Virus record (IMG/VR): IMGVR_UViG_3300047508_000072
Location: 1-37,405 of that record
Direction: 5' to 3' (one strand)
Origin: a virus
Length of the DNA stretch: 37,405 nucleotides
This document shows, in pieces, positions 3,560 to 37,405 of this stretch; position 1 is the stretch's first letter, and each line of letters begins with the position of its first letter. Position numbers and translations under genes: made by a program. The notes beneath the pieces are model-generated. The model had not been told where the DNA came from. It saw only the letters and a list, made by a program, of their open reading frames with translations, and searched no databases.

Positions 3560-3706
3560 ATGAAAACTGAAACGGGAGTGGCGATCTTTGGGTATGCGAT
3601 TGGTTTGCCGGCAGCCCTTTACCTGAGCGAAACCATGGGCGCTGGATTTACGTTTGCGCTGCTGTTTTTGCTGTGGGGTAACAACTGTGTGCAGAGAAAA
3701 GGCTGA
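3560..3706 (+). CDS. small membrane protein, 48 aa
   Basis: An ORF of 49 codons opening MKTETGVAIFGYAIGLPAAL after a GGAGG site (about 3546-3550). Two hydrophobic stretches, residues 6-20 and about 27-38 (AGFTFALLFLLWG), suggest a small inner-membrane protein. One base separates its TGA from the ATG at 3708. Function unknown. Confidence 0.6.
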   Translation: MKTETGVAIFGYAIGLPAALYLSETMGAGFTFALLFLLWGNNCVQRKG

Positions 3707-3707
3707 C

Positions 3708-4127
3708 ATGCCCCACAAAAGGAAAGGGCCGGTACCTATTGCAGGTCCGGCCCGTCCTATGTTACATAGTAGAGGCCGGCGCGAACCGGCATCTGTTGAA
3801 CCTGTAGCGGCAGGCTCGGACGCAAGTGTACACCATCCTTGTGCCGGAACAACCCCACAGAATCCTCGGATGCCCCGTACTGGCCCTGTGCTGCATGGTC
3901 GGGTAACAGTCCTGTGCGCTTGTAAGACCGGAAGACGGGTCAGCTCCTGTGACATTCGGTGCAGTGGTGAGACGGTAGCCCTGCGGAGCGAAAGAGAAGC
4001 CGCGTACATGTCGAGGGACGAGAGGAATCGTTCTTTCCAGTACAAGTCAGCCTCTTTTTTGGGGATGCTCTTGTACTGCCTCAGGACTCAAGGAATCCTA
4101 GTAAAATCAAAGGATAGGAGCTTATGA
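3708..4127 (+). CDS. uncertain ORF, 139 aa, or a structured RNA segment
   Basis: The frame opens at ATG 3708, one base after the stop of the membrane-protein gene, with AAAAGG upstream, and its TGA overlaps the HNH start at 4124 as ATGA. That spacing matches the real genes around it. Against it, the product is odd: rich in Arg, Pro, Cys and Gly with no recognisable fold (GPVPIAGPARP, CACKTGRRVSSCD). The DNA also holds strong hairpins: GGGCCGG...CCGGCCC at about 3726-3753, GCCGG...CCGGC near 3775-3789, GCGG...CCGC near 3983-4002, and a 9-base perfect arm pair CAGTACAAG/CTTGTACTG at about 4039-4078. It may be a true gene, an RNA, or both; I cannot decide. Confidence 0.35.
   Translation: MPHKRKGPVPIAGPARPMLHSRGRREPASVEPVAAGSDASVHHPCAGTTPQNPRMPRTGPVLHGRVTVLCACKTGRRVSSCDIRCSGETVALRSEREAAYMSRDERNRSFQYKSASFLGMLLYCLRTQGILVKSKDRSL
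4039..4078 (+). other. long inverted repeat upstream of the HNH gene
   Basis: CAGTACAAG (4039-4047) and CTTGTACTG (4070-4078) are a perfect 9-base inverted repeat; inside it, GCCTC and GGGGATGC can add pairs around a TTTTTT loop. It could be an attenuator, a recognition site of the HNH enzyme or part of a larger RNA fold. There is no T-run after the 3' arm, so a simple terminator is unlikely on the plus strand. Confidence 0.45.
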
Positions 4128-16675: not shown

Positions 16676-17973
16676 TGCCTCCCATCAATCCCGCATTGGC
16701 CGCGTTCAAGCAGCAGGGTCAGCCTCAAACGCTGAGGAACCCCAATGCGGCAGCGAATGCGGCTTACAACCAGCAGCAGGGCCAGAACAACCAGCCTCCG
16801 CCGATGAGTGGATCGCAAGCGGAGACGCAGGCGTGGAATGACAGCCTGGCTCCTCCGCCCCCTCCGGGGTCGAACCCGTATCAGGCCAATATCTCGCCCG
16901 ATATCCTGAACTCGATGCAGCAGTATGCGGATGCGGCGTATAAAGCGTCCACGAGACAGCTTGACCCGCAGTGGCAGAACCAGCAGAGCACCTTCGATCA
17001 GCAAATGGTTGCGCAAGGTCTGCAGCCTGGGTCGCAGGCTTATGACAACGCCTTACAGCAATTCAGCCAGCAGAAGAATGACGCTTATTCTCAAGCGAGG
17101 AATCAGAGTCTCCAGCAGGGTTTGCAGGCGCAAGGTCAAGCTTTCGGGCAAGGTCTGAGCAATTCCCAGCTCGCAAACGAGATTCTGAAAGCGCAGATAG
17201 GTGCGAAAGCCCAATTGGGTGCGGCTCAGGCGTCTGCAGCGGGCAATGTCGGCGCAGCCAATATCAACGCCGATGCGTCGATGGCGAACAACACGGCCAA
17301 TAACTACACCAATCAGCTTTTAGGATTGGGAAACTTAGGGTTGGGCTACAACAACTCGCAGATTTCCGGTTTGAATGCGTTAACCGGAGTCGGTCAGCTG
17401 GGTGTTAATCAACAGAATGCCAATACCGGAGCCAATCAGTCAGATATTTCCAGTCTCTTGGGGCTGTTGAACCAAGGGAATACTACGAGCATGTACAACA
17501 ATTCCCTTCCTGGGCAGTACATACAATCGATGATGCCGCTGATGGGAATGGTGCCGAATGGTGGTGCCGCACCGATCGATGTTACGGGTGCTTACGGGAT
17601 GAATCAGGCCGGCCAGAATGCGCAATATCAAGGGGGTGTGGCGAGTGCCAATGCCACCAACCAAATGGCCGGCCAGTTAGGAACGGCGGCCATCATGATG
17701 ATGATGATGATGTGTTCCAGGGAGCTGAAGGACGATCAGGGCGAGGCGGATACGAAAGAGGCCCTGGAGGCGGTGAAGGCTTTGCCCTTCCATCGCTGGA
17801 AATATAAAGGATCGGAAGATACGCATATCGGAACGTTCGCGGAGGATTTCAATAAAACGCTGGGACTGGGAAACAACCCGTTCATTACCTTGATCGACAT
17901 GATGGGCGTTATTTTGGGATCGGTGCAGGAACTTGCGAAGCGAATTGAATCTCTCGAAGCTGACCGGGCATAA
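16675..17973 (+). CDS. Gln/Asn-rich virion protein with C-terminal peptidase S74 chaperone domain, 432 aa
   Basis: Residues 1-340 are Gln/Asn/Ala/Gly-rich and largely helical with DPQWQNQQSTFDQQMVAQGL and repeated NNYTNQLLGLGNLGLGYNN-type segments. A run of six Met (341-346) precedes CSRELKDD. From there HRWKYKG, HIGTFAEDF, ITLIDMMGVILGSVQELAKR is the pattern of the S74 intramolecular chaperone domain, which trimerises and cuts itself off at its first Ser. S74 domains usually end tail fibres or spikes; here the host protein resembles ejection or head-tail proteins. The predicted cleavage is near Ser348. Start TAATG overlap. Confidence 0.85.
   Translation: MPPINPALAAFKQQGQPQTLRNPNAAANAAYNQQQGQNNQPPPMSGSQAETQAWNDSLAPPPPPGSNPYQANISPDILNSMQQYADAAYKASTRQLDPQWQNQQSTFDQQMVAQGLQPGSQAYDNALQQFSQQKNDAYSQARNQSLQQGLQAQGQAFGQGLSNSQLANEILKAQIGAKAQLGAAQASAAGNVGAANINADASMANNTANNYTNQLLGLGNLGLGYNNSQISGLNALTGVGQLGVNQQNANTGANQSDISSLLGLLNQGNTTSMYNNSLPGQYIQSMMPLMGMVPNGGAAPIDVTGAYGMNQAGQNAQYQGGVASANATNQMAGQLGTAAIMMMMMMCSRELKDDQGEADTKEALEAVKALPFHRWKYKGSEDTHIGTFAEDFNKTLGLGNNPFITLIDMMGVILGSVQELAKRIESLEADRA
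17695..17712 (+). repeat. ATG hexamer microsatellite
   Basis: Six consecutive ATG codons directly before the S74 domain, giving Met341-346. Slippage here would change length without shifting frame. It marks the exact junction between virion protein and chaperone domain. Confidence 0.9.
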
Positions 17974-18676
17974 GTTCGCTCTGCAGTTTTCAGGCGGCAA
18001 GGATTCGCTAGCCTGTTTGCACCTACTTGAACCGGTATGGGATCAGCTCATTGTTTTATGGGGTAATCCAGGAGATGAATTCCCGGAGTTAGCGGAGGAA
18101 GTCAGGAAAATTCCCTGTCAATTGATCGAGGTGAGAGGGAATGCGTTTGAGGATGCTTCACAAGCGTATCCGGTCGATATTTTGCCACTCCGGTGCACGA
18201 TTGTCGGGAGAGCGATACAGCCAGAAAGTGGGACGATCGCGTTGCAGTCAAAGTTTGAGTGTTGTACGAAGAATTTCTGGTGGCCAATGGCGCAAAAGGT
18301 CAAGGAGCTGGGAATTACATTACTGATACGAGGACAACGCAGAAGTGAGTTTTTGAGAGCGCCGATTCTGCCGGGATCAAAGGACGTTTCCGGGGCGGAA
18401 ATCTGGCTACCGATCAACGACTGGACGCAAGAGGATGTCGTTAACTACCTGAAAGGAAAAGGTATAGACTTGCCGAAGTACTACGCTTACATGAGTGCGG
18501 GGCCGAAATGCATGCACTGTACCGCGTGGCTGGCAGACCAGAAAGGCAAGCTGCCTTATTTGCATCGATACCACCCCAAAGTGGCAGTCGAGTACAAGCG
18601 CAGGATGCGACTGATACAGAAAGAACTAGAACTCGGTTTAGAAGAGATTCGCGATACAAGGATTAACCCCTTATGA
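17933..18676 (+). CDS. PAPS-reductase-like PP-loop protein, 247 aa
   Basis: The PP-loop FSGGKDS (residues 19-25) followed by LACLHLLEP, then WGNPGDEFPELAEEVRKI and LIRGQRRSEFLRAPIL, PINDWTQEDVVNYLKGKGID, and GPKCMHCTAWL match the phosphoadenosine-phosphosulfate reductase / ATP-PPase group. Members activate substrates by adenylation; phage homologues have been linked to sulfur metabolism and to DNA modification. A Cys pair CMHC near the C-terminus is present. The start is a TTG (17933 or 17945) inside the S74 gene. The gene sits in the virion block, with no partner such as DndD or iron-sulfur carrier nearby. Confidence 0.85.
   Translation: MRSELNLSKLTGHKFALQFSGGKDSLACLHLLEPVWDQLIVLWGNPGDEFPELAEEVRKIPCQLIEVRGNAFEDASQAYPVDILPLRCTIVGRAIQPESGTIALQSKFECCTKNFWWPMAQKVKELGITLLIRGQRRSEFLRAPILPGSKDVSGAEIWLPINDWTQEDVVNYLKGKGIDLPKYYAYMSAGPKCMHCTAWLADQKGKLPYLHRYHPKVAVEYKRRMRLIQKELELGLEEIRDTRINPL

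Positions 18677-37146: not shown

Positions 37147-37405
<259 letters not shown>

Follow-up and report, generated by a model that had tools for sequence, protein, structure and literature searches.

A conserved pseudoknotted RNA, related to Rfam family RF02932, in place of an apparent gene 5' of a phage HNH nuclease gene

The question raised by this locus is whether a 420-nt segment directly 5' of an HNH nuclease gene is a translationally coupled gene or a structured RNA. The segment lies in a 37,405-base virus record from IMG/VR, analysed over its full length (the window), in which a Cro-like gene at 1246 is followed by long rightward transcription through the HNH gene (PF01844, 4124-4642, + strand; Pfam gives HNH only), a DnaT-like gene, RusA and onward. 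A Ref-like RecA-dependent nuclease (PF16786, 1673-2044) is encoded early in this rightward operon, and a PAPS reductase-domain protein is found among the structural genes at 17933-18676. A 139-codon frame is open across the segment (3708-4127, + strand), and the preliminary description had pointed to its operon spacing; both the frame and the junctions are present, as the TGA (3704-3706) of a 48-aa frame directly 5' (3560-3706) is followed by a single c and the ATG at 3708, and the stop of the 139-codon frame overlaps the HNH start as ATGA (4124).

This junction geometry favors a 139-residue protein with translation coupled between the 48-aa frame and HNH, but the frame itself does not behave as a gene. 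The composition had been called odd, and on a codon-usage score trained on the 43 window genes the frame reaches -0.22, below every one of those genes (leave-one-out range -0.146 to 0.297) and among the lowest of shadow frames; GC at the three codon positions is 0.57/0.58/0.53 as compared with 0.58/0.46/0.61. No homologue of the 139-aa product was found in a protein search of viral contigs or near relatives of the HNH gene, and all three forward frames are interrupted by stops in each of the other members of the RNA family described below. On the basis of the low codon score, the lack of homologues and the stops in relatives, the frame is judged not to be a gene and the segment is non-coding; as the stems also vary by compensation, a coupled protein is exceedingly improbable. 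Annotators can call such RNA segments genes when a frame is open by chance.

The strong hairpins that had been noticed in the DNA are present, and include a GGGCCGG (3726-3732)/CCGGCCC (3747-3753) stem and two perfect 9-base arm pairs: CTGTGGGGT (3671-3679) with ACCCCACAG (3852-3860), and CAGTACAAG (4038-4046) with CTTGTACTG (4070-4078). Folding of the whole 420 nt is beyond chance (z -2.2), and in a scan of the genome with 200-nt windows, windows 3701 and 4001 take 5th and 12th place among 372. No window of the genome folds more strongly than a 200-nt one at the record end (z -6.8), where 37255-37405 is a long GGCGTC/GGCGGC low-complexity run, perhaps a repeat or the end of an assembly. Within the segment, the stems strongest by eye fall in the 5' half, where a structured domain (3671-3860, + strand) is predicted in which the helix CTGTGGGGT/ACCCCACAG closes around several hairpins, including GGGCCGG/CCGGCCC; the 5' arm of this closing helix sits within the end of the 48-aa frame. 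Folded alone, 3670-3870 gives z -4.15 (0/200 shuffles), with the MFE structure equal to the centroid. The 3' domain folded alone is of ordinary stability (z -0.01), so the case for it is one of covariation, not of energy, and the covariation result described below concerns this 3' half (3880-4082).

A blastn search of the segment against phages and plasmids returned chance-level matches only. Related loci were reached by searching with the HNH protein, and in two of these, L002 and L005, the sequence 5' of HNH has the motifs TCGGRTAAC and TGAGAC in common; pattern scans gave L119, L156, L157 and L166, then L215/L219, L216 and L218. As several of these are near-duplicates (L157/L166/L218, L215/L219, L002/L125 and L005/L120), the family, termed RNA2, is represented by about eight independent phage loci, the window copy included. 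A covariance model built without the window copy (R2), for which L216 and L215 were not used either, recovers L216 (131.7 bits) and L215 (98.4 bits). Neither pseudoknot is represented in R2, and the 3' end of L156 is wrongly placed in its alignment. A match in Pectobacterium phage PEAT2 was not a family member.

The RNA2 domain occupies 3880-4082 on the + strand, as delimited by alignments A1 and A3, covariation and a descriptor scan, and is predicted to contain six helices, all on the same strand. Pa is a hairpin (GCATGG/CCTGTGC, 3893-3917) with the loop motif TCGGGTAAC at 3899-3907, in agreement with the consensus loop of RF02932, GGuCGGguaa. It is followed by Pb, ACCGGA (3927-3932)/TTCGGT (3955-3960), identified by alignment and covariation, the loop of which contains TGTGACA (3948-3954) as well as the 5' arm of Pc. 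Pc, GCTCC (3943-3947)/GGAGC (3985-3989), is a pseudoknot helix followed by GAAAGAG (3990-3996); in the window it is a fully compensated 5 bp with a spacing of 30 nt, other members having 30 or 31. Pd (GCAG/CTGC, 3961-3984) adjoins Pb and Pc, and Pe, CGGT (3973-3976)/GCCG (3999-4002), is the second pseudoknot helix; two pseudoknots result, since Pb crosses Pc and Pe crosses Pd. Pe is weak in the window, with 4 bp lying one column off the family register; across the family, 92% of its cells are paired. The terminal hairpin Pf (CAGTACAAG/CTTGTACTG, 4038-4078) carries the conserved GGATGC (4063-4068). A TGAGACG at 3968 was considered as the conserved motif and rejected, as the alignment puts the true motif at TGTGACA, 3948. 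Upstream of the domain, the 9-mer GCGAACYGG stands 119 nt 5' of motif A in the window and at -114 in L002 and -86 in L005, a recurrence at similar distance which suggests that the leader may extend at least to about 3780.

In a MAFFT alignment, which is blind to structure, the six helices, including the two that close pseudoknots, fall in register. With seven members, 79.9% of cells are paired and two-sided changes occur at 26 of 40 pairs, giving 48 two-sided cells as against 17.3±3.3 in shuffled and 8-18 in slid alignments; with nine members, 86.9% of cells are paired and both sides vary at 26 of 36 pairs; the 66 two-sided cells compare with 22.9±3.5 after shuffling and 4-16 after sliding. 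Since the aligned sequences themselves were used to draw the structure, the fraction of cells paired has a head start, and the count of two-sided changes is thus the stronger measure. Pc is paired in all nine aligned members with compensating changes, occurring as GGAAC/GTTCC, GGAGC/GCTCC, GGGTC/GACCC, GGATC/GATCC and GGTCC/GGACC, and as GCTCC/GGAGC in the window. As judged from this strong compensatory change, the 3' half (3880-4082) is a conserved RNA. The check for covarying stems in homologues, which the preliminary description had proposed, has therefore come out in favor of a fold kept by compensation, and of the two options that it offered, a coupled frame or a structured RNA, the second was right.

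Membership of the window copy needs separate consideration, as a model that includes it (R1) gives no answer on this point. R2 places it correctly (3879-4085) at a non-significant 2.7 bits (E 5), and its membership consequently rests on a descriptor, the alignment and its position 5' of HNH. The descriptor consists of Pc, TGAGACA (one mismatch), the reverse complement of Pc and GAACAAG (two mismatches), with the hairpin-I loop or Pf as extra elements; it finds the window copy with Pc, the hairpin-I loop and Pf all present. Random sequence (20 Mb) yielded 10 matches to Pc only and 0 that also had one of the extra elements; within 4.2 Mb of real sequence, counting both strands, such an element accompanied the match in family members only. 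The mismatch tolerances were chosen after the window copy had been seen, making this evidence strong but not blind. Descriptor, alignment and position together indicate that the window copy is a diverged member of the RNA2 family with every element.

The position of the RNA next to an HNH gene raises the possibility of a guide or cofactor RNA, as in the IscB/HEARO ribonucleoproteins, whose omega RNA is likewise a structured RNA 5' of an HNH gene. HNH lies directly 3' in the window, L002, L005 and L219; three of these four cases were found through HNH, and L219 through the RNA pattern alone. In five other loci, however, RNA2 precedes different genes: a Lar-like gene in L119 (Pfam E 1.6e-4, below the cut-off); a gene in L216 that appears nuclease-like by eye, for which a Pfam search gave nothing; a ParB-like gene (by eye) in L157/L166, where a Cro-like gene directly precedes the RNA; late head genes (by eye) in L156; and in Acidovorax phage AP1 a 63-aa frame followed by RusA. 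HNH relatives also occur without RNA2, the window protein is a 172-aa HNH protein without IscB architecture, and an Rfam search of the window copy gave no HEARO match. As HNH is not a fixed partner, a guide RNA for the nuclease is very improbable, and the HNH gene is inferred to be operon cargo; the earlier caution against a direct IscB parallel was well placed. The window copy had no Rfam match to group I or II introns, and the segment had no match to a tRNA.

Other HNH genes are preceded by unannotated gaps of 450-640 nt, in Vibrio phages, Sulfitobacter phage phiGT1 and Xanthomonas phage Kintu; these were considered as RNA2 candidates, but neither R1 nor R2 matches them and they are taken to be different elements. 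In the Vibrio phages (L106 1721-2179, L109 1213-1679, L108 1237-1760) a region of 460-525 nt before a related HNH gene has a promoter-like site and a T-run hairpin, the stem of which differs between phages with pairing kept, followed by a second block that is 77% shared with L075; the whole L106 region matches 326 phage records, in one of which it is annotated as tRNA-Und. Kintu (L111 1215-1520) and L003 (5489-5762) share, at 76%, a further structured RNA whose end is terminator-like, and the sequence at about 820-960 in L119, just 5' of RNA2, resembles it. The gap in phiGT1 (L107 1707-2347) is 641 nt long.

The genes 3' of RNA2 vary while the next listed gene is codirectional with it in the loci examined, which argues for a leader acting on the operon; the folded RNA probably acts as a control element heading a block of phage genes. 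Taken jointly, the identity of the window segment as an RNA2-family RNA and a role as cis leader are reasonably likely. RNA2 would fold during its own transcription and work in cis on the downstream operon (HNH, DnaT-like, NinB-like, RusA and onward, the NinB-like gene being named from its phage relatives), altering the elongating RNA polymerase or the expression of the following genes in the way of put and nut sites. That it is an antitermination element, the mechanism favored here, is a tentative proposal by analogy, with something less than an even chance of being correct. In L005 a sigma-70-like promoter-like site (10/12) stands 120 nt 5' of motif A; in the window, a scan just upstream found no promoter-like site and a scan of the genome found no excess of terminator-like sites, so that nothing in the window copy itself points to antitermination.

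Two other modes of action may be weighed against the cis leader. A small phage RNA, processed from the operon transcript or terminated within it, could act in trans on other RNAs or proteins; Rfam types RF02932 as 'Gene; sRNA', which would act in trans, and the varied downstream genes make a gene-specific cis target unnecessary. This is nonetheless rather unlikely, given that RNA2 and the gene after it point the same way and lie close together in the loci examined, and that no terminator-like site was found 3' of it in the window. Control confined to translation of the next gene is improbable: in the MFE fold of the 420 nt, AGCTCCT can pair with the AGGAGCT of the HNH ribosome site and so hide it, but these bases are the 5' arm of Pc, conserved for another pairing, and the distance from RNA2 to the gene start differs greatly among members.

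The closest known relative of RNA2 is RF02932 (Betaproteobacteria-1 RNA), a family for which we know of no described function. The RF02932 model matches L166, L157, L156, L005 and L119 at the RNA2 places, all below the gathering score of 49.4 bits (34.9, 33.5, 23.4, 22.8 and 15.8 bits), and AP1, an isolated phage found by way of the RF02932 consensus, scores 93.4 bits and has the same Pb/Pc/Pd/Pe fold (GCUG/CAGC, GGGGC/GCCCC, AAGGG/CCCUU and GCCAGA/UCUGGC, respectively). A pattern scan of viral contigs for RF02932-like cores gave no family members on inspection, and a search for RF02932 in 369 genomes of one class found none, the controls being equally silent and the outcome therefore uninformative. 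The two families share the hairpin I loop GGUCGGGUAA, present in the window as GGTCGGGTAAC (3897-3907) in agreement with GGuCGGguaa, as well as a hairpin II with a Pc arm followed by UGARA, the Pc arm being paired again after the third-stem region; in the window this appears as Pb/Pc, TGTGACA (one mismatch) and GAAAGAG. The printed RF02932 consensus contains ggugc/gcacc, corresponding to Pc, and aaggg/cccuu, corresponding to Pd, both unpaired in Rfam's structure line. Its third stem (6 bp) corresponds to Pe, which is strong in other members and in the window has the 4 bp off register already described. RNA2 differs in its longer inner hairpin and in the conserved 3' Pf with GGAUGC, both of which lie outside the 120-position model. 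The sub-threshold matches and the score and fold of AP1 show the RNA2 family to be related to RF02932. The window copy has no match to RF02932 at E<=5 and does not reach the family, and is thus filed as a relative, not a member. The expectation that a conserved fold here would be new is accordingly upheld for the compensated fold and only in part for its novelty, as the RNA is a variant of a described family. The kinship links RF02932 to phage operon leaders, including that of AP1; RNA2 supplies a fuller fold with two pseudoknots that allows the design of probing and reporter tests, and an apparent odd gene becomes a covariation-supported RNA.

The put RNA suppresses termination through the zinc-binding domain of the RNA polymerase beta' subunit. 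In HK022 it is about 70 nt with two stem-loops, and as a phage RNA element in an operon leader it is the source from which the proposed function of RNA2 is borrowed (PMC9378689). RNA2 departs from it in size and plan, with about 200 nt, six helices and pseudoknots. It is doubtful, though conceivable, that RNA2 and RF02932 belong to a single superfamily of phage leaders with a double pseudoknot, modifying the host RNA polymerase with no help from a phage protein; if true, this would add a second kind of put-like element and give RF02932 a role.
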